A stretch of DNA of 38,911 nt, taken from assembly GCA_020845955.1 (NCBI GenBank), contig JADLEU010000374.1, positions 1 through 38,911 of the forward strand, in the 5' to 3' direction. This document shows positions 151-37,520 of the stretch, piece by piece. The position numbers and the translations under genes were made by a program. The notes under the pieces are model-generated. The model saw only the letters and a list, made by a program, of their open reading frames with translations. It was not told where the DNA came from and did no database searches. This stretch comes from Anaerolineales bacterium. GTDB lineage: Bacteria; Chloroflexota; Anaerolineae; Anaerolineales; UBA6663. Position 1 is the stretch's first letter. Each line of letters opens with the position of its first letter.

Positions 151-1080
151 TCACCCCTTCCGGTCCAAATCCAGCCCCAGTTGCCGCCCGCGGGCGAGTT
201 GCGCGAGCGGTGAGCGCTGGGCGTGGTCGCGGATTAGCTCTTCATCGAGGCGGTGGCGGTAGATCGTGATCGTCGTCTCGACGTTGGCGTGCCCGAGTAT
301 CTTCTGCAGGTCGTCCAGCGGACCGTCGTAGTAGGTCGCAAATGTGTGCCGCAGCCCGTGGACGGAAACTTCCACGCCGGCGCGGTGTGCGGCGCTCCGG
401 ACCATGCGGTAGATCGCGATCCCAGTCATCCCGAAGAGCGAGCGCCCCAGGCTGGCTGGCCGCACCGCCAACCAGCACCGCAAAGCATAGATGGTGGTTG
501 ACGTGAGCGGCACCCGCCGCCCCTTGCCACCCTTGCCGCGCCGGATGGTCAGCACACCAGTAGTTATATCAAGGTCCGCCACCGCCGCGCTCGCAACTTC
601 TCCCCGGCGCGCGCCGCAGTCCAGAAAGACCAAGCCAACGGCCAAGTTGCGCACCGGTAGCAGACTGGTCAGCAGCGCGTCTCTAAAGCGCTGCATCTCC
701 GCGACCGAAAGGAAATGCGGCACTTCCTGGTCGACCTTTGGTTTACGCACCCCAGCCATCGGGTCAGCTTCTAGGTAGTGGTTGGCGACACACCAGGTCA
801 CGAACGTGTGGACTGACCGGTAACACTGTGAAACCGTAGATTGTGAGAATGGCTTGCCCCTGGCCGATTTCGCGTCGGCCAGCCCTGCTAGCCAAGTGCG
901 TATGCCGCTCGCCGTAAGGCTCCTCAGCGGCGTCGTCTCGCCTGCGTACTGCACAAATCGCAGCAACCCATAGCTATATGCCGTGAGGGTGGCCTTTGTA
1001 AGGCCACCGGCCCGGCAGCTCACCAGGTACTCGCGCGAGGCCTCCCCCAGCGTGAAGCCCTGGCCTCCATCACCGCCCAT
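151..1080 (-). CDS. int: Tyrosine recombinase, phage integrase
   Basis: Catalyses site-specific integration at attP/attB and, with an excisionase, excision. The 309-residue protein has an N-terminal SAM-like core-binding domain (about 10-115) and a C-terminal catalytic domain with the complete active site: Arg158 in GARRGE, Lys183/186 in the beta-hairpin RGKGGKGR, His241-x-x-Arg244 (HGLRH), His264 (LGHAN) and the nucleophile Tyr274 (ITIYRH). I chose the ATG at 1080 because GGAGGGG lies about six bases upstream; an earlier in-frame start at 1137 would add a Cys-rich leader with no family support. The gene ends 20 bases from the tRNA-Gly-like attP core, the usual int-attP arrangement. It runs opposite to the early operon and converges on attP with the xis-like gene. 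Identification is secure. Confidence 0.97.
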   Translation of the reverse strand: MGGDGGQGFTLGEASREYLVSCRAGGLTKATLTAYSYGLLRFVQYAGETTPLRSLTASGIRTWLAGLADAKSARGKPFSQSTVSQCYRSVHTFVTWCVANHYLEADPMAGVRKPKVDQEVPHFLSVAEMQRFRDALLTSLLPVRNLAVGLVFLDCGARRGEVASAAVADLDITTGVLTIRRGKGGKGRRVPLTSTTIYALRCWLAVRPASLGRSLFGMTGIAIYRMVRSAAHRAGVEVSVHGLRHTFATYYDGPLDDLQKILGHANVETTITIYRHRLDEELIRDHAQRSPLAQLARGRQLGLDLDRKG

Positions 1081-1320
1081 TCGCACCCCTCCCCCGTGGC
1101 ACCGGCAGAAACAAAAACGCCGGCACCACGGACTCAAAGCGAGTCCGCGCCGCCGACGGCGCGCGCTCTCCCTGGATAGCAGCCGTTGCGACCGGCAGCC
1201 ATCCCCACATCCATCGCGACTCTACAGGAGTTCACGGCCAACTGTCAAACCAGTCTCCCAGCGCCGGCGCGCCTGGCCCGCCTCGCCGGCGCTGTACCCA
1301 ACCCACAGAAAGGACCACCC
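1081..1320. promoter_or_regulatory. Divergent intergenic region with hairpins
   Basis: A 240-base gap between int (leftward) and the early operon (rightward) that must hold both promoters. I see three inverted repeats: GTGGCACCGGC/GCCGGCACCAC with a central mismatch (1096-1129), GGACTC-AAAGC-GAGTCC (1130-1146) and a 10-bp perfect stem AGCGCCGGCG/CGCCGGCGCT (1260-1293). No convincing -35/-10 pair stands out. A ribosome site AGAAAGGA precedes the ATG at 1321. The stems could be attenuators or repressor targets. Confidence 0.45.
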
Positions 1321-1620
1321 ATGACCCACATGCCCTTACCCAATCCCAACGACCCGGCTGTGCTCGCCCGACACCAGTATTTCCTGCGCACGCGGCCGCA
1401 GTTCGCGCTCGCTTTGCGCGAACTGATCGAGTCGGGTTGGTCCAAAGCCCACGTGCTGGAGATCCTCCGGCGCGGCGGCCTGCAGCCCTGGTTTGTCGAA
1501 GACGCCGGCATCGAGATCGACTACCTGCTGGCCACCGGCGCCGCGGGGCGCTCGCTGCGCGCCGCCCCGGCCGTCACCGTCGACGCCGATATGTCCGCAG
1601 ACATGCCGGCGGCGGTCTAG
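1321..1620 (+). CDS. Hypothetical early protein (99 aa)
   Basis: First gene of the rightward early operon; I do not recognise the family. I used the ATG at 1321 because AGAAAGGA lies just upstream; an in-frame start at 1186 would run through the structured leader and is less likely. The first 80 residues look folded and helical. The tail is Ala/Val-rich and ends in MSADMPAAV, which is the translation of a copy of the dispersed palindrome (1591-1604) lying 20 bases before the next start codon. The tail is therefore probably shaped by the DNA site more than by protein function. Position suggests replication or regulation. Confidence 0.7.
   Translation: MTHMPLPNPNDPAVLARHQYFLRTRPQFALALRELIESGWSKAHVLEILRRGGLQPWFVEDAGIEIDYLLATGAAGRSLRAAPAVTVDADMSADMPAAV
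1591..1604. repeat. Dispersed palindrome ATGTC-YRYR-GACAT, site 1
   Basis: ATGTCCGCAGACAT, perfect arms. It lies in the 3' end of the first early gene, in frame as MSADM, just upstream of the start at 1624. Confidence 0.9.
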
Positions 1621-1623
1621 CGC

Positions 1624-1971
1624 ATGGCCACGCTCAAAGAGCAGCTCACCGACCAGTTGGCCTGGTGCCGGCGCCATGTCGAGCAGCGCCAGCGAATCGA
1701 GCTCAAAGGCGGCCTGCGCATCACGGTCTACATCGACGGTGCCGGCGCCGCGCACGTGATGCTGGCGCGCGACGGCGCCAAAGGCCCGAGCGACGATGAA
1801 GCGCGGACCGTGCTCGCCCACTGGCCCGAGCCGATCGCCGGCCCGGTCACCTGGGAGCGCGCTGCCGGCCGGCTGGCCGCCTGGATGACGGCCACGCTGC
1901 CGAAGACGAACCAGCTGAGCTTGTTCGACAGTCCCACCCAACCACACACCCAGCACAACCACAACCCATGA
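1624..1971 (+). CDS. Hypothetical protein with a C-terminal clamp-binding-like motif (115 aa)
   Basis: No family recognised. The N-terminal 90 residues look like a small alpha/beta domain. Residues 97-101 read QLSLF, a textbook bacterial beta-clamp binding pentapeptide (consensus QLxLF), in a probably disordered, His/Pro-rich tail. Known clamp-binding proteins (polymerases, Hda, mismatch repair proteins, some phage clamp inhibitors) use this motif to dock on the sliding clamp. The inference that this protein contacts the host clamp fits its place one gene upstream of the replication initiator block. It starts three bases after the previous stop and overlaps the next gene by 4 bases, implying translational coupling. 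Confidence 0.72.
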   Translation: MATLKEQLTDQLAWCRRHVEQRQRIELKGGLRITVYIDGAGAAHVMLARDGAKGPSDDEARTVLAHWPEPIAGPVTWERAAGRLAAWMTATLPKTNQLSLFDSPTQPHTQHNHNP

Positions 1972-2324
1972 ACGTCTCACAGTTGTTCCCGCCCGAGCTG
2001 CACCTGATCGGCACCTTCGGCGACCTGGTCATCGCTACCCGGCCGGCCCCCGACGTGGCCCCCGGCCATCAACACATCTACATCACCCAGGCGCCCGACC
2101 ACACCCTCAGCACACCCACCCTGCTCGCCCATGATTTGGCAATGGTGCTCGGCCTGCACGACTACACCTGGGCCGACGTCGCCGGCGCGCGCTGGCTGGT
2201 CGTCCCCCACACCCCCACCGTGGACGCCCGGCTCAAGGCGCTTGTGGACCTGGCTCATGCGCTGCGGATGGCGGCGCCGGGCCTGGTGCAACTCTCCTTC
2301 GCCATCCCTGGGACGGCGCTATGA
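1968..2324 (+). CDS. Hypothetical early protein (118 aa)
   Basis: A compact protein without signal or membrane segments and with no family that I know. It overlaps both neighbours by 4 bases (ATGA junctions at 1968 and 2321), so it is probably translated together with the initiator that follows. Codon use and composition match the surrounding early genes. Its constant position upstream of the replication genes suggests an accessory replication or regulatory role, but nothing in the sequence shows one. Confidence 0.7.
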   Translation: MNVSQLFPPELHLIGTFGDLVIATRPAPDVAPGHQHIYITQAPDHTLSTPTLLAHDLAMVLGLHDYTWADVAGARWLVVPHTPTVDARLKALVDLAHALRMAAPGLVQLSFAIPGTAL

Positions 2325-3619
2325 CCGCGGTGCCAATCGAAGCCACCATCATTCTCAATCACGGGCTGAGCAGCAGCATGTTCCGCACCTACGCCCGGCT
2401 CAAAGCCCGGGCCTGGGATGGGACCGCCACTCGGGAGCTGCGCCTGCCCTTCGACGACCTGAAGGCGCTGGTGGGACTGTCCGACTCGAAGACGCGTGAG
2501 CACCTGAAGTGGCTGAAGGAGCTCCACCGCCTGGTGGCCTGGACCACCAACGGCGACCAGGTCTATACCCTGCGCTTCCTGCCGCCGCCGGCCGTGGGCG
2601 ACAGCCGGCCGCTGGACAGCCAGCTCCCGGAAACGGGAGCAGACGGCCTCCCAAAAACGGGAACTGGCGAGCTCCCATTTTTGGGAATCCCGGAATCCCG
2701 AAAACGGGAGTGTGGTGGTGGTGGTTTAAATACAGACTCTCAAGACCCTCTAGATTCAAACCACCAACACCAGCCTCCCGAAAACGGGAGCTCGGGAGCG
2801 GGCGCGATCTTCGCCCGGGTGGAGCGCCTGCTGCTGGCGGTCCGGCTGTGGCCGGACGCCGCCATCCGCCTGGCCGGGCAGATCGCCCAGATCGAGGCCG
2901 CGGCGCCGGGGGACCTGCACTACCTCGACGCTCACGTCACCACCCGCGACGTGCTCGGCTATGTGCTCTACGTTCGTGATCCGGAGCAGGAAATTCGCAA
3001 CCGGCCCGGGCTGATCAGCAAGAACCTGGCGGCCGGGCGCTGGGCCAACGAGCACTACCGCCCGCACTACATCTGCGGCGGCTGCCACAAGATTGCGCCC
3101 CACTGCACCTGCGCGGATGGTCCGCAGCCGACGCTGCCCGAGGTCTACGACGTGCTCGCCCTGGCGCCGCAGCCCGCGGCGGGGGAAGGGCTGGCGCGGA
3201 ATGTCTTTAGCCGCTGGGGCATCTGCGAGACCTGCTACGCGCTGCCCTGCCAGTGCCCGGCGCCGGCCGGCGACGAACGCGAGCCGGAGCCCGCGCGCGG
3301 GCCCGTCTCGGCGGCGGCGCCCGAGTCGCCCACCGCGCGCTTCTGGCGCCACGTGCTCGACCAGCTGTCGCTCGAGTTGCCCAAGTCCACCTTCGACGCC
3401 TGGCTGCGCCCGACGCAGCTCCTGCACGTGAGCGAGCCGGGGGAGGCCGGCCGCCTCACCTACACCCTCGGCGCCGCGAACCAGTACGCGCGCGATTGGC
3501 TGGATAACCGCCTGGCCGGCACGCTGACCCGCCTGCTGGGCGCCGCCAGCGCCGGGCGGCCGGTCCAGGTCGTCATCGAGATCTCACCCACCCCCAACCC
3601 ACAGGACACACACCCATGA
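2321..3619 (+). CDS. Phage replication initiator: winged helix, iteron linker, Cys motifs, DnaA domain I-like module
   Basis: 432 residues in four parts. Residues 1-95 look like a winged-helix DNA-binding domain of the kind found at the front of phage and plasmid initiators. Residues 100-165 are a low-complexity linker encoded by the iteron array. Two Cys clusters follow, CGGCHKIAPHCTC and CETCYALPCQC, likely zinc knuckles. The C-terminal 85 residues match the DnaA N-terminal domain, from FWRHVLDQL through STFDAWLRP to YARDWLDNRLAG, including the W-hydrophobic pattern that in DnaA contacts DnaB helicase. There is no AAA+ domain. I infer an origin-binding protein that recruits the host helicase directly, comparable in logic to lambda O. 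It overlaps both neighbours by 4 bases. The DnaA_N match is good by eye; the winged helix is less certain. Confidence 0.85.
   Translation: MTAVPIEATIILNHGLSSSMFRTYARLKARAWDGTATRELRLPFDDLKALVGLSDSKTREHLKWLKELHRLVAWTTNGDQVYTLRFLPPPAVGDSRPLDSQLPETGADGLPKTGTGELPFLGIPESRKRECGGGGLNTDSQDPLDSNHQHQPPENGSSGAGAIFARVERLLLAVRLWPDAAIRLAGQIAQIEAAAPGDLHYLDAHVTTRDVLGYVLYVRDPEQEIRNRPGLISKNLAAGRWANEHYRPHYICGGCHKIAPHCTCADGPQPTLPEVYDVLALAPQPAAGEGLARNVFSRWGICETCYALPCQCPAPAGDEREPEPARGPVSAAAPESPTARFWRHVLDQLSLELPKSTFDAWLRPTQLLHVSEPGEAGRLTYTLGAANQYARDWLDNRLAGTLTRLLGAASAGRPVQVVIEISPTPNPQDTHP
2623..2791. other. ori: Putative replication origin: five palindromic iterons and an AT-rich segment inside the initiator gene
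   Basis: Five near-palindromic 14-mers with consensus TCCC-RWWWW-YGGGA have cores at 2625-2638, 2649-2662, 2673-2686, 2696-2709 and 2776-2789. The first four are spaced 24, 24 and 23 bases, just over two helical turns. The fifth follows an AT-rich stretch (2725-2760, including TTTAAATA) flanked by the inverted repeat GGTGGTTT (2720-2727) / AAACCACC (2758-2765). Iterons plus an easily melted segment within the initiator gene is the arrangement of the lambda O-gene origin. The encoded peptide is a flexible linker, so the DNA is free to serve as a binding array. Confidence 0.8.
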
Positions 3620-5337
3620 GCATCGAACTCTTCGCGCTCGACCTGGTCGTCGAGAACCCCTGGAACGAACGCCCGCTGGACGCCGAGAACGTCGCGCAGA
3701 TCGCGGCGAGCTTGCTCACCGACGGCTTGCTCCAGACGCCGGTCGGCCGCCCGCACCCCACCAAGCCCGGGCACGTGCAGCTGGCCTACGGCCACCACCG
3801 CGCCGCGGCCTTCCGCCAGCTGGCGGCCGCGCACCCCACCGACCAGCGCTGGCAGCTGCTGCCGGTGGACCTGCGCGAGATCGATGACTTGCGCATGGCG
3901 CGCTATGCCATCATCGAGAACCACAGCCGCAAGGACCCATCAGCAATCGAGAAGGCCCGGGCGCTGCTGCGGCTGACCAGCGAGTTCAAACAGACGCACG
4001 CCCAGGCCGGCGAGGTCTTTGGGCTGAAGAACCAGGCCTCGGTCGCCAATCTCCTGCGGCTGCTAAAGCTCCCCGAGGAAGTGCAGGCCCTGGTGGACGC
4101 CGGCCAGCTGCCCGAGAGCCTGGCGCGCCAGCTGGTATCGCTCAGCCGCGTGATGCCCAAGGAAGCGGCCAAGATCGCGGCCGCAGCCGCCAAGGCCGAC
4201 CCCCACGAGCGCCACGTGGAGTTCGAGAACGCCTTCAACGAGACGGTGCGCAACAGAGGCCGGTGGTTGTCGAACACGGCCTGGCCGCAGGGCTGGCCCG
4301 AGCAGCCGATCGCGCTCACGGGCCATAAGAGCCTGACCGAGATCCCCAGCTGCGACGGCTGCGAGTTCAGCGTGCGCTCGCGCTTCCACGGCCCGGCCTG
4401 CATCCGCCCCGAGTGCTACGCGGCCAAGGAAGTCGAGCACGCCCGGACCAAGGCGGCCGCCGCGGCCAAGAAGCTCGGCCTCGCCGTCGGCGCGCCGGGC
4501 GAGAAGGTCGTTGACCTGATCAGCAGCGCCGACGCCGACCTGGCGCTGGTCCAGCGCGCGCTCAAGGCCAACCACCCCTCGCTGCGCGTGGTGCCGGCGC
4601 CGACCGACAGCTACTACACGCGCAACACCCGGGCGCGCGTGACTGGCGACGGCCAGCTGACGATCGCCACCGTGGACCGCACAGCCCTGGTTGCCGCCTT
4701 CCCGCCGCCCAAGCCCCGGGAGGCGTCGAAGTCCGCCAATGGCACGGGAGCCGGGGCGAAGCCGGCCGAGCCGCACGTGATGTCGGAGAGAGATTCGAAG
4801 TGGGCCATGCGCCGCAAGCATGGCGAGGCGCTGCTGGCCGCCGCGGCGCCCCACATCGCGGAAGCGCTGCCAGCTGACAACCGCGCGTTGAACCTGCTCT
4901 GGACCGTCTTTGGGCACAACTACATCGACCCGAAGTTCCGGCAGGCCTGGGCGAAGGCCACCACGCCGGCTGGCCGCCGCGTGGTCCTGGCGCACTGGCT
5001 CCTTAACGAAATGGACGAGACGACCGACTGGGAGTCGCTCGACGATATGCACGCGGGCGTGGTGAAGCTGGCCGCCGAGGTCAAGGTCAAGCTGCCGGCG
5101 GACTGGGACCCGACCGCTAAGAAGGCTGAGCCGGCGCCCAAGCCTGCCAAGGATGTCCGTGGACACACCCGCCCGACGCCGACACAGTCCCCGCGCTCCC
5201 CAGCGGGGAAGCCCAGCACGAAAAAACAGCCCGCGCCGGCGAAGCCCGTCGGCGTCTCGACCGGCCGCCCCAGCCGCGCCGCGCAGCAGCGCGCGCAGGC
5301 CGCCGCCGCGAGCGCGAAGAAGGGCGGGCGGAAGTGA
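3616..5337 (+). CDS. ParB/Spo0J-like protein with HTH and Cys cluster (573 aa)
   Basis: The N-terminal 120 residues form a ParB/sulfiredoxin-like domain: the box that is GERR in ParB reads GHHR here (59-62), followed by the conserved region IIENHSRKD (about 99-107). A helix-turn-helix follows (AGEVFGLKNQASVANLLRLLKLP, about 133-155). Mid-protein there is a Cys cluster, CDGCEF...CIRPECY, common in long phage ParB-like proteins and probably zinc-binding. The C-terminus is a Lys/Pro/Ala-rich tail. ParB relatives bind specific palindromes and load CTP-dependent clamps, though some phage versions are nucleases; which applies here is open. A near copy of the dispersed palindrome lies in its own tail region. 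It overlaps the initiator by 4 bases and the next gene by a GTGA junction. Confidence 0.88.
   Translation: MSIELFALDLVVENPWNERPLDAENVAQIAASLLTDGLLQTPVGRPHPTKPGHVQLAYGHHRAAAFRQLAAAHPTDQRWQLLPVDLREIDDLRMARYAIIENHSRKDPSAIEKARALLRLTSEFKQTHAQAGEVFGLKNQASVANLLRLLKLPEEVQALVDAGQLPESLARQLVSLSRVMPKEAAKIAAAAAKADPHERHVEFENAFNETVRNRGRWLSNTAWPQGWPEQPIALTGHKSLTEIPSCDGCEFSVRSRFHGPACIRPECYAAKEVEHARTKAAAAAKKLGLAVGAPGEKVVDLISSADADLALVQRALKANHPSLRVVPAPTDSYYTRNTRARVTGDGQLTIATVDRTALVAAFPPPKPREASKSANGTGAGAKPAEPHVMSERDSKWAMRRKHGEALLAAAAPHIAEALPADNRALNLLWTVFGHNYIDPKFRQAWAKATTPAGRRVVLAHWLLNEMDETTDWESLDDMHAGVVKLAAEVKVKLPADWDPTAKKAEPAPKPAKDVRGHTRPTPTQSPRSPAGKPSTKKQPAPAKPVGVSTGRPSRAAQQRAQAAAASAKKGGRK
5153..5166. repeat. 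Dispersed palindrome, site 2 (13/14)
   Basis: ATGTCCGTGGACAC, one mismatch in the last base. It lies in the disordered tail of the ParB-like gene in a different reading frame (DVRGH), so the DNA is kept without the usual peptide. Confidence 0.75.
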
Positions 5338-5951: not shown

Positions 5952-6127
5952 ACGCTACACCCTGGCTCGTGCCCTTCTGCGCCGGCGCGCTGCTGACGGT
6001 TATCGTCCAGGGGCTGGCGGCGCTGGCCGTCATCGTGCTCATGGCGCGCGACGCCCCTGAGGCGGCGCTGGCCGTCATCGTGCTCATGGCGCGCGACGCC
6101 CCTGAGGCGCCGCCGTCCGAAGAATAG
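5948..6127 (+). CDS. Small membrane protein with a duplicated hydrophobic segment (59 aa)
   Basis: A 59-residue reading frame begins in an ATGA overlap with the previous gene. It contains an N-terminal hydrophobic segment and then two identical 15-residue units, AALAVIVLMARDAPE, arising from an exact 45-base tandem duplication. Without the duplication it would be a single-span protein with a short polar tail; with it there are two hydrophobic stretches separated by a charged RDAPE turn. The coupled start and intact frame argue that it is expressed. Function unknown; holin-like or membrane-anchoring roles are possible. Confidence 0.6.
   Translation: MNATPWLVPFCAGALLTVIVQGLAALAVIVLMARDAPEAALAVIVLMARDAPEAPPSEE
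6017..6106 (+). repeat. Exact 45-bp tandem duplication
   Basis: Bases 6017-6061 are repeated without change in 6062-6106. The unit is a multiple of three, so the frame is kept. Zero divergence points to a very recent event or an assembly effect. Confidence 0.92.
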
Positions 6128-6765: not shown

Positions 6766-8208
6766 GTGACGAAAGCTAAGGACCTGCGGCTCGCGCCGTC
6801 GCTCCAGCTGAGCGACGACATTGTCACACTGACCATTGCCGTGCTCGGCAACCGCGGCAGCGGCAAGACGAACACGGGCGTGGTGATCACCGAGGACCTG
6901 CTCGACCTCGGCTACCAGGTGGTCGTGATTGACCCGCTCGACGTGTGGTGGGGGCTGAAGTCCAGCGCCGACGGCAAGGCCGCGGGGTACCCGGTGATCG
7001 TGCTGGGCGGCCCGCATGGCGACGTGCCGCTGGCCGACACCGACGGGCGGGTCGTCGCCGACTTCGTCGTGGACAGCCGCCGGCCGGTGATCATCTCACT
7101 CCGCCACGTATCGAAGGCCGGCCAGCGCCGCTTCATGGCCGACTTCGCCGAGCAGATCTACCGCCGCAAGGGCGAGCCCGGGCGCAACACGCCCTGCCTG
7201 TTTGTGATCGACGAGGCCTCCAGCTACGTGCCGCAGCGCGTGGGCCCCGACGAGACCCGCATGCTGGGCGCGCTGGAGGACTGGGTCCGCCGCGGCCGCG
7301 CCAGCGGGATCGGGGTCACGCTGATCGACCAGCGCGCCGCCTCTGTCAACAAGGACGTGCTGACGCAGATCGAGCTGCTCGTGGCCCACCGCCACACCAG
7401 CCCGCAGGACCGCAAGGCCCTGCAGGAGTGGGTGAGGGGGCACGACACCGAAGGGCACGAGGCCGCCTTCATGGAGTCGCTCGCCGCCCTCAAGCAGGGG
7501 GAGGCCTGGTTCTGGTCGCCGAACTGGCTCGACCTGTTCCAGCGGGTGCAGGTGCGGCCGCGCCGCACCTATGACTCCAGCCGCACGCCCGAGCGCGGCC
7601 AGGCCCTGCCGGCGCCGAAGGCCCAGGCCGAAGTTGACCTGGAGGCCCTCAAGGCCCAGCTGACGCGCACGATCGAGCAGGCGCGCGAGAACGACCCGCG
7701 CGAGCTGAAGGCGCAGATCGCCAAGCTGCAGGGCGAGCTCCGCAAGGCGGCCGCCGCCCAGCCCGCGCCCAAGGTCGAGCGCGTCGAGGTGCCGGTGCTG
7801 GACGCCGGCGACGTGGCCCGGATGATGGCCGCCGCCGGGCGCCTGGACGAAGCGGCGGCCGCGATCCAGCGCCTGGTGGCGGCCTACCAGGCCAGCGCCA
7901 AGGAACTCAGCGAGCTCGTGCGGACCGCCCAGGCCCGCTTGGAGGCCCGGCCGGCGGCCCCCCGGCCACAGATGCCCCAGCGGGCCGGGGCGGCGCCCAG
8001 CGCCCCGCGCGTGCCCACCGCTGCGCCGCGCGGGAGACGCCGAGCCACCTGCCGCGGCCGCAGCAGGCCATCCTCAACGCCCTGGCCTGGCTGGAGTCAG
8101 TCGGCATCGCACCGGCCAGCCGGCCGCAGGTGGCGCTGCTGGCCGGCGCGTCGCCCAACTCCAGCGCCTACACGAACAACCTGGGCGCGCTGCGCACGGC
8201 CGAGCTGA
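6766..8208 (+). CDS. HerA/FtsK-like P-loop ATPase (DUF87-type), 3' end frameshifted
   Basis: A GTG start with GAGGGGAGA upstream. Walker A is GNRGSGKTN (28-36), Walker B is CLFVIDEAS (Asp149-Glu150), and an arginine-rich segment with LIDQRAASVNKDVL follows, as in HerA/VirB4-type hexameric DNA pumps. Residues 285-400 are coiled-coil, then a Pro/Ala linker. After about residue 420 the frame degrades into an Arg/Trp-rich composition, while the -1 frame from about 8034 continues sensibly into a winged-helix region (8130-8528). I read the two as one original gene of about 585 codons. In the cell it would translocate or sort DNA; with the ParB-like protein it suggests segregation or replication-fork handling. 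Residues after 420 should not be trusted. Confidence 0.85.
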   Translation: MTKAKDLRLAPSLQLSDDIVTLTIAVLGNRGSGKTNTGVVITEDLLDLGYQVVVIDPLDVWWGLKSSADGKAAGYPVIVLGGPHGDVPLADTDGRVVADFVVDSRRPVIISLRHVSKAGQRRFMADFAEQIYRRKGEPGRNTPCLFVIDEASSYVPQRVGPDETRMLGALEDWVRRGRASGIGVTLIDQRAASVNKDVLTQIELLVAHRHTSPQDRKALQEWVRGHDTEGHEAAFMESLAALKQGEAWFWSPNWLDLFQRVQVRPRRTYDSSRTPERGQALPAPKAQAEVDLEALKAQLTRTIEQARENDPRELKAQIAKLQGELRKAAAAQPAPKVERVEVPVLDAGDVARMMAAAGRLDEAAAAIQRLVAAYQASAKELSELVRTAQARLEARPAAPRPQMPQRAGAAPSAPRVPTAAPRGRRRATCRGRSRPSSTPWPGWSQSASHRPAGRRWRCWPARRPTPAPTRTTWARCARPS

Positions 8209-12191: not shown

Positions 12192-12331
12192 AAACATTCA
12201 AAACCTTATTTTCGAGTGTTTCTGAATGTTTCCGAATAAATTCTGAAGGTTTTTCGGCAGGCGAGCGGGCCGCCATGTCCGTAGACATAACGCTCTGACT
12301 CGCCTTATGCTAGCACCCAGGAGGGACCCCC
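12192..12331. promoter_or_regulatory. AT-rich gap with helically phased TTCYGAA repeats
   Basis: An AT-rich island in GC-rich DNA. Inverted repeat AAACATTCA (12192-12200) / TGAATGTTT (12223-12231). TTC-headed repeats start at 12211, 12220, 12230, 12241 and 12253, the central three being TTCTGAA, TTCCGAA and TTCTGAA, spaced about 10-12 bases. A dispersed palindrome follows at 12275. It could be a promoter with a regulator array, or a centromere-like element. AGGAGGG precedes the next ATG. Confidence 0.55.
12275..12288. repeat. Dispersed palindrome, site 4 (intergenic)
   Basis: ATGTCCGTAGACAT, perfect arms, in the only gap that carries a copy. An eight-codon frame MSVDITL-stop could be read from it, but no ribosome site is visible. 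Confidence 0.88.
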
Positions 12332-31308: not shown

Positions 31309-32163
31309 TCAGGCGCGAGCCTCTGCGGCGCGGAGCGCGGGCGCTCGCCGCGCCCGGGCGCGCGCGGGGGCCGGGATCAGCTGGGGCACCTGGCCGGTCA
31401 GGTCGGCCCAGCGCTGCAGCTCGACCGCCACGAACTCGGGCGCCTGCTCGATCCCGATGCAGGTCCGCCCGGCGGCTTCGGCCGCCAGGAGCGACCCGCC
31501 CGAGCCGAGGAAGGGGTCATAGACCAGGCCCGCGGCCGGGCAGGTATTGGCGATCGCCCGGGCCGGCAGCTCGACCGGCTTCTCGGTGGGGTGGTGGCGC
31601 TTGCCCGTGGGTGGGCGCATGACGCGCCACAGATCGGTGGCGGCCTCTCCGCCGCGGCTCCCCAGCCAGCGATTGCCGGCGCCGCCGACGTATCCGAAGT
31701 AGACGAACTCGTAGCGCGAGTGGTAGCCGTTGCGCCGCAGCGTCATCGCCAGCTTGTCCCACACGATCACGCGCGGCAGCAGGCGCAGGTGGTGCTCGAA
31801 GAGCCGGGAGTAGAGGACCATGTTGGCCCAGCCGCCGCAGACGTAGACCCAGGCCTTGGGCGCCAGCACGTCAGGCAGCAGCGCAAAGAAAAGGGCCACG
31901 GCCGCGAGGGTCAGGTCGCCGTCGATGGCGTCGCCGGTCGTCGAGGTGTAATTGACGCCGTAGGGCGGATCAGTCCAGACGAGATCTGCCTGGCGGCCGT
32001 CCAGCGCGCGGGCCACGTGCTCGCGCCGGGTGCCGTCCCCGCAGAGCACGCGGTGCCGGCCTAGCTGCCACAGCTGGCCGAACTCGACGCGCCATTGTCG
32101 GCGCAGTTCGCCGGCGCGGGCCATCAGGTTAGAGCGGGGTGTGGTGAGCGCAGCCGAAGCCAT
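31309..32163 (-). CDS. DNA methyltransferase, N6-adenine/N4-cytosine beta-type (284 aa)
   Basis: Motif IV is TDPPYGVNY (65-68 DPPY), ahead of the AdoMet motif I region DPFLGSGGSLLAAE (about 216-229), and the HPTEKPVELP signature (191-200) sits between; DPPY before FxGxG is the beta-class order. DPPY chemistry allows adenine-N6 or cytosine-N4. The first 45 residues resemble the ParB-adjacent lead-in of phage methyltransferases (GRHRVLCGDGT). No restriction partner is nearby, so it is an orphan, probably protecting phage DNA or marking packaging or origin sites. Confidence 0.94.
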   Translation of the reverse strand: MASAALTTPRSNLMARAGELRRQWRVEFGQLWQLGRHRVLCGDGTRREHVARALDGRQADLVWTDPPYGVNYTSTTGDAIDGDLTLAAVALFFALLPDVLAPKAWVYVCGGWANMVLYSRLFEHHLRLLPRVIVWDKLAMTLRRNGYHSRYEFVYFGYVGGAGNRWLGSRGGEAATDLWRVMRPPTGKRHHPTEKPVELPARAIANTCPAAGLVYDPFLGSGGSLLAAEAAGRTCIGIEQAPEFVAVELQRWADLTGQVPQLIPAPARARARRAPALRAAEARA

Positions 32164-36247: not shown

Positions 36248-36490
36248 CTACCCCTCCCCTGCGTGGGAGTCGGCCTGGTCACCGTGGCGGTCAGTGTAGT
36301 AGCTGCCGTTGGCGACCGGAAAGCTGGCGGCCAGCGTGGCGCGCTCCAGCACGCCGGCGGCGCCACCGCGCGAGCGGAAGCTGCTGGAATGTGAGCTGCG
36401 GCGGGCCTTGGGGCGCTTGGCGCAGTGGGCGCAGATGCGCTTACCGGTCTGGGCTTCGCGTTTGTGGCAACGGCGACATTTAAGATTCAT
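36248..36490 (-). CDS. Small zinc-binding protein (80 aa)
   Basis: Starts NLKCRRCHKREAQTGKRICAHC: two CxxC pairs eleven residues apart, a zinc-ribbon start, followed by an Arg/Ser-rich region. GGAGG lies upstream inside the end of the HNH gene, which it overlaps by 11 bases. Likely a nucleic-acid-binding accessory protein. Confidence 0.7.
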   Translation of the reverse strand: MNLKCRRCHKREAQTGKRICAHCAKRPKARRSSHSSSFRSRGGAAGVLERATLAASFPVANGSYYTDRHGDQADSHAGEG

Positions 36491-36935
36491 AGAGGGCCTC
36501 CTGAGCAGCCTTACGGATGGCGGCGCGGGCGGCACGCCGGGCGCGCTGCCGGTCGTTGATGCAGGTGCGGCATTGGCGCCGGCCGCGGCTGTCGACGACC
36601 AGGTTGGCGCCGGCCAGCGCGTGGCCGCGCTTGCAGTGGGTCTTGTGGATGTTGCGTGTGAGGGGGTTCTCGGCTAGCGCCGAATGCTCGGGGTGGCGCT
36701 GCAGCTCCAGGTGCGCCGGGTTGACGCAGCGCCGGTTGCGGCACGTGTGATGCACGTCATAGCCGGCCGGGATCGCGCCGACGCTTAGCTGGTAGCTGAG
36801 GCGGTGCGCCAGATGCGAGCGGCCCTGGCGCCAGACCGAGCCGTAGCCGCGCGACTGAATGGCGCGCTGCCACACCCAGCAGCCATTGGGCTGGACGCTG
36901 TATTTGCCTGCGAACGGATCGGGCCGAGACGACAA
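36480..36935 (-). CDS. HNH endonuclease (151 aa)
   Basis: NGCWVWQRAIQSRGYGSVW and HLAHRLSYQL precede the catalytic HNH box VHHTCRNRRCVNPAHLE (His62-His63, Asn72, His75), followed by a second Cys set (THCKRGHALAG, CRTC), the usual HNH_3-type phage enzyme. The only possible start is a TTG at 36935, which lies in the T-tract of a hairpin just upstream, so the annotated start is doubtful. It is the first gene behind the leftward promoter. Such enzymes are either homing nucleases or packaging partners of the terminase. A truncated relative lies at 37554-37733. Confidence 0.9.
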   Translation of the reverse strand: MSSRPDPFAGKYSVQPNGCWVWQRAIQSRGYGSVWRQGRSHLAHRLSYQLSVGAIPAGYDVHHTCRNRRCVNPAHLELQRHPEHSALAENPLTRNIHKTHCKRGHALAGANLVVDSRGRRQCRTCINDRQRARRAARAAIRKAAQEALYES

Positions 36936-37142: not shown

Positions 37143-37520
37143 CTAGAGAAGGCCCTGGCGCCGCAGGAGTTCATTGACTTCGGCGAGCGCCAGGTTGGTG
37201 AGCACGTTTTTCAAGACTTCCAGGGCCAGACCGCCAGTACCCTTCACCAAATTCAAAGCCTGGTTCCAGCGCTTGTCGCTGCGGGCGTTATCTAGAAACT
37301 CATGACCATCCCAAGTCAGAGCCGTCGGCAGAAGAAGATTGGCGGTGTTGCTCGACTTGTCAAACACCTCGATAAAGCCGGCCTTCTGCAGCAGGCGTAG
37401 ATGCTGGTAAATCTCGGCCGCGGTGTAGCCGTCAAACGCCAGTGGCGCCATTGGCTCAAGCGTTGGGTGCGCTTCAATCGCCAGCAAGATCTTGCGGATG
37501 AGGTCCATGCTGCGAATCAT
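37143..37520 (-). CDS. DUF2513-like winged-helix protein, candidate regulator (125 aa)
   Basis: SMDLIRKILLAIEAH, GYTAAEIYQHLRLLQKAGFIEV and LTWDGHEFLDNARSDKRWNQA, then VKGTGGLALEVLKNVL, follow the DUF2513 pattern found in many prophages. The middle reads as a winged helix. GGAGA precedes the ATG at 37520. It sits directly upstream of the leftward promoter and operator-like repeat and is more AT-rich than the structural genes, so it is my best candidate for a lysogeny regulator, although the family has no established function. Confidence 0.82.
   Translation of the reverse strand: MIRSMDLIRKILLAIEAHPTLEPMAPLAFDGYTAAEIYQHLRLLQKAGFIEVFDKSSNTANLLLPTALTWDGHEFLDNARSDKRWNQALNLVKGTGGLALEVLKNVLTNLALAEVNELLRRQGLL

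Follow-up and report, generated by a model that had tools for sequence, protein, structure and literature searches.

The window that we analysed is one entire contig of 38,911 bases, and its exact 127-bp terminal repeat indicates that the molecule is circular, with a length of about 38.8 kb. Among its genes are those for a portal, both terminase subunits, a head protease, a major head protein, a tape measure and a tail, and the same circular phage encodes a tyrosine integrase (151-1137, minus strand; Phage_integrase, E = 1e-23). Given the integrase together with the portal, terminase, head and tail genes, the contig is a temperate siphophage or phage-plasmid of a Chloroflexota bacterium, its host assignment resting on binning; the relatives of the bin are Anaerolineales (Chloroflexota). 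On the plus strand, a small gene of 118 aa (1968-2324) lies directly upstream of the initiator gene (2321-3619, 432 aa), and a ParB-like gene (3616-5337; HTH_ParB, TIGR00180) overlaps the end of the latter. A homologue of the 118-aa gene was found at the equivalent position in the viral contig L068 (E = 2.4e-7).

The only Pfam and NCBIfam match of the initiator protein is the DnaA N-terminal domain (PF11638, E = 1.9e-8, aa 341-406). An AF2 model built with a 14-sequence alignment (mean pLDDT was only 38 without an alignment) predicts a confident winged-helix domain at aa 7-93, followed by a disordered linker at aa 94-157 (pLDDT below 50), a poorly predicted middle region with two Cys clusters (encoded at 3074-3113 and 3224-3257) and a C-terminal DnaA domain I at aa 337-421 (pLDDT about 90). 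In Foldseek/VIA comparisons with solved structures, the C-terminal domain matched DnaA domain I (4tps, Z 13.6). The best wHTH-type PDB matches of the N-terminal domain were to Rep, the staphylococcal multiresistance plasmid initiator (4pql, 4pt7 and 5kbj; Z 9.7-10.9), with an identity to this RepA_N-type winged helix of 15-16% and a Z only about 1-2 above that of generic winged helices. Against predicted viral proteins the top matches were phage replication initiators and helix-turn-helix proteins. The domain I of the dnaA gene in the same bin is related to that of the initiator.

Inside the initiator gene there are five TCCCN6GGGA palindromes, all listed on the plus strand: TCCCGGAAACGGGA (iteron 1, 2625-2638), TCCCAAAAACGGGA (iteron 2, 2649-2662), TCCCATTTTTGGGA (iteron 3, 2673-2686) and two copies of TCCCGAAAACGGGA (iteron 4, 2696-2709; iteron 5, 2776-2789), the last on the far side of an AT-rich core. 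A preliminary description of this DNA had given them the form TCCC-RWWWW-YGGGA; all five are present and four fit exactly, but the first is one base off RWWWWY. The start spacings are 24, 24, 23 and 80, in agreement with the 23-24 base spacing described for four of the palindromes. The iteron pattern TCCCRWWWWYGGGA is confined to the array within the 6.06-Mb assembly. TCCCN6GGGA occurs 6 times in the whole window against 0.86 expected, a count reached in none of 100 dinucleotide shuffles; the sixth match, at 36255, is unrelated. With the peptide fixed, at least five copies arose in none of 20,000 synonymous shuffles of the gene (maximum 3) and in none of 20,000 resamplings with the codon usage of the contig (maximum 2). 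Iterons 1-3 are read in one frame as LPETG, LPKTG and LPFLG, iteron 4 in a second frame as SRKRE and iteron 5 in the third as PENGS. Because all three reading frames are used, the iteron is a feature of the DNA and not a peptide repeat. The encoded peptide, described earlier as a low-complexity linker, is the predicted disordered segment of the model, which coincides with the DNA of the iterons and the AT-rich core.

The two sequences reported earlier as boundaries of the AT-rich segment, GGTGGTTT (2720-2727) and AAACCACC (2758-2765), are both there around an AT-rich stretch. They form the core of longer complementary arms built around (GGT)4/ACCACC, the left arm GTGTGGTGGTGGTGGTTTAAAT at 2710-2731 and its complement, the right arm ATTCAAACCACCAACACCAGCC, at 2754-2775 (both plus strand). 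Their pairing score of 17 exceeded that of all 300 peptide-preserving shuffles (maximum 12.5). The AT-rich core, beginning with TTTAAATACAGA (2725-2761, no strand assigned), is the presumed unwinding element. The AT-rich 40-mer at 2722-2725 is 62% AT, compared to a window mean of 32%, and is the fourth richest in AT among the 40-mers of the 38.9 kb. Folded as a single strand of DNA, the stretch 2696-2789 (94 bases) gives one long hairpin with z = -6.7, and none of 200 shuffles was as stable. Hairpin formation on opening, binding of a further protein and a role in the mRNA are all possible for the arms. In-gene iteron origins are recognised by peptide-independent repeats about two turns apart inside the initiator coding sequence and by an AT-rich unwinding region adjoining them; both were found here, and the AT-rich region was found in relatives too.

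GC skew had been proposed as a check on this location. The skew minimum lies at about 9-12.5 kb and not at 2.7 kb, but the skew follows gene direction and cannot place an origin; at third codon positions, genes of both strands had a coding-strand skew that was negative or close to zero. We therefore rejected GC skew as an origin locator. No consensus DnaA boxes were found in the phage. None of the early genes searched was recognised as coding for a helicase loader, a primase or a DnaB-type helicase, a result that fits recruitment of the host helicase and proves nothing. Peptide patterns in the genome and viral collections and tblastn against plasmids and phages gave no close DNA-level relatives of the initiator gene, and residues 1-330, searched against 400 Chloroflexota genomes, gave one short match only (L034).

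Relatives were obtained with a domain profile, which retrieved 13 viral contigs from IMG/VR. Most of them keep the order wHTH, linker, middle region and DnaA domain I, and their wHTH domains are mostly dissimilar (mean identity 17%). Linker palindromes were found as AGTGCGGAAAATCGCACT (L068 and L069), GGGGGGAAATCCCCCC (L071), AAGATTCGAGGAATCCTCGAATCTT (L073), GCGCACAAAATGTGC (L074), CAGTTCCCGAAAAATCGGGAACTG (L077), GGGGACACCATGTCCCC (L078) and GGGTGACAGCCTGTCACC (L067), and the genome contig L006 has 5-6 copies of TGTTGCGCCC..GCGCAACA. The arrays exceeded nearly all peptide-preserving shuffles in L067, L070, L073, L077 and L078, and in L068, L069 and L072 they did so by one or both of two measures; the arrays of L006 and L052, from Anaerolineales genomes, were likewise above such shuffles. 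No array was detectable in L003, L035 and L075. The array of L071 was not counted because it precedes the start codon; the two flanking palindromes of this locus, GGGGGGAAATCCCCCC, were counted instead. The preliminary description had named relatives with the peptide and without the iterons as the case that would speak against an origin. The opposite was seen: the peptide and the iteron words are lost, and palindromic iterons and an AT-rich core are kept in place. Further viral scans with single relatives as query returned self-matches only. One match to a Leptolinea plasmid (L066) was set aside: it is a short protein with DnaA_N that has no array.

An AT-rich core between complementary triplet arms is present in the window, L068, L069, L070, L071, L073, L074 and L077 and is weaker in L072 and L079; this inverted repeat is absent in L078, L067, L006 and L075. 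The triplet pairs vary (GGT/ACC, GGA/TCC, GAT/ATC and GAA/TTC), and the complement follows the triplet. Arms paired better with their own partner than with those of other loci in 9 of 9 cases, that is, they covary. For six relatives the arm region was folded, with z between -3.5 and -8.8. L068 and L069 also contain the core TTAAATACAGA seen in the window.

A second, larger class with DnaA_N was found in Anaerolineales. These Rep proteins are mostly 640-810 aa long, usually have the DnaA domain I at the N-terminus and contain no AAA+ domain. We called an array when it had at least four copies and stood above all 25 peptide-preserving shuffles. By this test 45 of 49 large Rep genes and 0 of 46 true dnaA genes have linker arrays, counts that describe breadth and not a probability, as the relatives are mutually non-independent. 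The spacing is mostly 21-24 bp. The large Reps, found in L080-L135 and L037-L061 (for example L096, 6034-7965, with a ParA gene upstream at 4431-5201), look like the initiators of integrated plasmids or similar elements. To judge from the sequences, the same design is used, with other iteron words, by other phages and by this large class of Anaerolineales Rep genes.

Based on these data, we conclude that the array is very probably an in-gene replication origin, located in the circular temperate phage within its own initiator gene; the replication activity is what we infer. By analogy with lambda O and the pSK41 Rep, the N-terminal winged helix would bind the palindromic iterons, which are about two helical turns apart, and the resulting nucleoprotein complex would open the AT-rich core. 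The complementary arms might then form extruded hairpins or keep the opened DNA stable. The C-terminal domain I is probably the helicase-recruiting module of the initiator and would bring in DnaB, the replicative helicase of the host, as domain I does in DnaA. In E. coli, the contact of DnaA domain I with DnaB is made by Glu21 and Phe46 (PMC5448010); in an alignment made by eye these positions are Thr and Tyr, respectively, in the window protein, and for this reason the DnaB step is one that we infer. The linker peptide would be a by-product of the DNA and free to change. A wider proposal, which we find equally easy to accept and to doubt, is that these genes form an undescribed, widespread initiator class of Chloroflexota (Anaerolineales) phages and mobile elements, in which an origin-encoding linker connects an interchangeable winged helix to a DnaA domain I. 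The unwinding core would lie between covarying triplet arms that may form a hairpin for helicase loading, and domain I would recruit the helicase without the ATPase of DnaA.

The complementary arms, as distinct from the iterons, could instead form an RNA hairpin in the initiator mRNA that controls translation or copy number. The arms would fold as RNA as well as DNA, and they covary across phages. This reading is compatible with an origin, and we consider it unlikely, given that the arms flank the AT-rich core, between iterons and deep in the coding region, and that Rfam gave no credible match; the sub-threshold miRNA models that it returned reflect the hairpin shape only.

The presence of a ParB-like gene directly after the initiator gene raises the idea that the palindromes are parS-like centromere sites for its product. 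parS sites are palindromes near par genes. Of the 13 viral loci, just two (L068 and L078) gave a ParB homologue close to the initiator, which makes a parS reading quite unlikely; iterons or flanking palindromes occur in others without one. In every family the iterons fall in the linker of a predicted DNA-binding protein, and a par site leaves the AT-rich core with its complementary arms unexplained. In addition, iteron identity followed wHTH identity in the single testable pair: L068 and L069, the only two with similar wHTHs (81% identical over 48 aligned residues), have an identical iteron.

An operator is a third candidate, at which the initiator protein would repress or autoregulate expression without any origin function. 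A winged-helix protein could bind palindromes of its own gene, and there are weak matches to repressor-type HTH families. As a full account of the array we find it very unlikely. Neither sigma-70-type promoter-like sites nor terminators were found in 1500-4000, and the place would be unusual for an operator, being 300 bases into the gene, at a domain boundary across protein families, and adjoining an AT-rich core; the DnaA domain I indicates replication. Autoregulation is possible as an extra role beside origin function. Finally, a selected LPxTG-like peptide repeat or low-complexity sequence might have produced the repeats as a by-product, as the shared frame of LPETG, LPKTG and LPFLG could suggest. 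For the window this is ruled out by the two other frames of iterons 4 and 5 and by the 20,000 peptide-preserving shuffles without five copies, and more than one frame is likewise used in 44 of the 45 large-Rep arrays.

An in-gene origin invites comparison with the lambda origin, which lies in the middle of the O gene and has 19-bp inverted-repeat iterons (PMC7466680). The preliminary description had likened the locus to this origin while giving it iterons of its own, and we agree: in both, an early phage gene for the initiator contains mid-gene an origin, a probable one in the window, with several inverted-repeat iterons adjoining an AT-rich region (PMC7466680), and the iteron sequence is unrelated to that of lambda. 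Unlike the lambda origin, the window has one iteron beyond the AT-rich core, and complementary triplet arms stand on both sides of this core. Unlike lambda O, the protein has a DnaA domain I as its C-terminal part, and the window genes searched included no recognisable lambda P-like gene. Phage_rep_O (PF04492), the lambda O family, gave no match to the window protein up to E = 1 and E = 0.17 with the relative L078.

The linker of the pSK41 Rep is dispensable and encoded by the origin, and its C-terminal domain contacts the host replisome (PMC5703833). The window protein resembles such RepA_N initiators (pSK41 and the chimeric pPR9 Rep) in its winged-helix N-terminus, in a probable in-gene origin that encodes the linker and in having a C-terminal domain, the one that makes the replisome contact in pSK41 (PMC5703833). 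It differs in having no Pfam RepA_N (PF06970) match, in the DnaA domain I that replaces the DnaG-binding domain, and in belonging to a phage in a Chloroflexota bin and not to Firmicute plasmids. With DnaA it shares the C-terminal 85 residues, where both PF11638 and solved structures of DnaA domain I match. Unlike DnaA, it has no Pfam match to an AAA+ ATPase or to the DnaA-type DNA-binding domain IV (TIGR00362 scored 17 bits against a cut-off of 344), and domain I is C-terminal here and N-terminal in DnaA; the phage lacks the DnaA boxes as well.

In-gene iteron origins are known; what is new is the combination with a DnaA domain I, the core between covarying triplet arms and the breadth in Chloroflexota. 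We know of no phage origin described so far in Anaerolineae. A literature search of open-licence papers found no description of this type of initiator and origin and no paper joining Anaerolineae with iterons. Dozens of related elements of phages and bacteria show the same layout with different DNA words. With this pattern as a sequence signature, such origins can be sought in Chloroflexota elements that have not been cultured, and it would yield minimal replicons on which to build genetic tools for a phylum in which manipulation is difficult. The arrangement suggests that DnaA domain I is detachable and reusable as a helicase-recruiting module, and the role of this domain could then be tested directly with the remainder of DnaA absent. 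The variety of iteron words at a constant position in the protein offers a natural experiment on the co-change of initiator and origin.

Several minor observations were made. The middle region of phage-type initiators has motifs like C2H2 zinc fingers, in L068 at 3755-3870 and in the window protein as the Cys clusters; these might bind the triplet-repeat arms. The same bin has a second HTH/DnaA_N-like protein without a detectable iteron array, on a 3.8-kb contig (L049, G000:C292, 2212-3600). The early block of the window encodes a HerA/FtsK-like ATPase (6766-8208) that matches HerA models and a PHROG named terminase, and L068 has an FtsK-like gene directly downstream of its initiator. A perfect 45-bp tandem duplication of 2.2 copies is located between predicted genes at 6016-6113. 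The minus strand encodes a DNA methyltransferase (31309-32163), an HNH endonuclease (36480-36935) and a DUF2513 protein (37143-37520). The top AT-rich 40-mer of the window (12192-12231, 72%) comes directly after the early gene block and may be an att site, a terminator or a promoter region.
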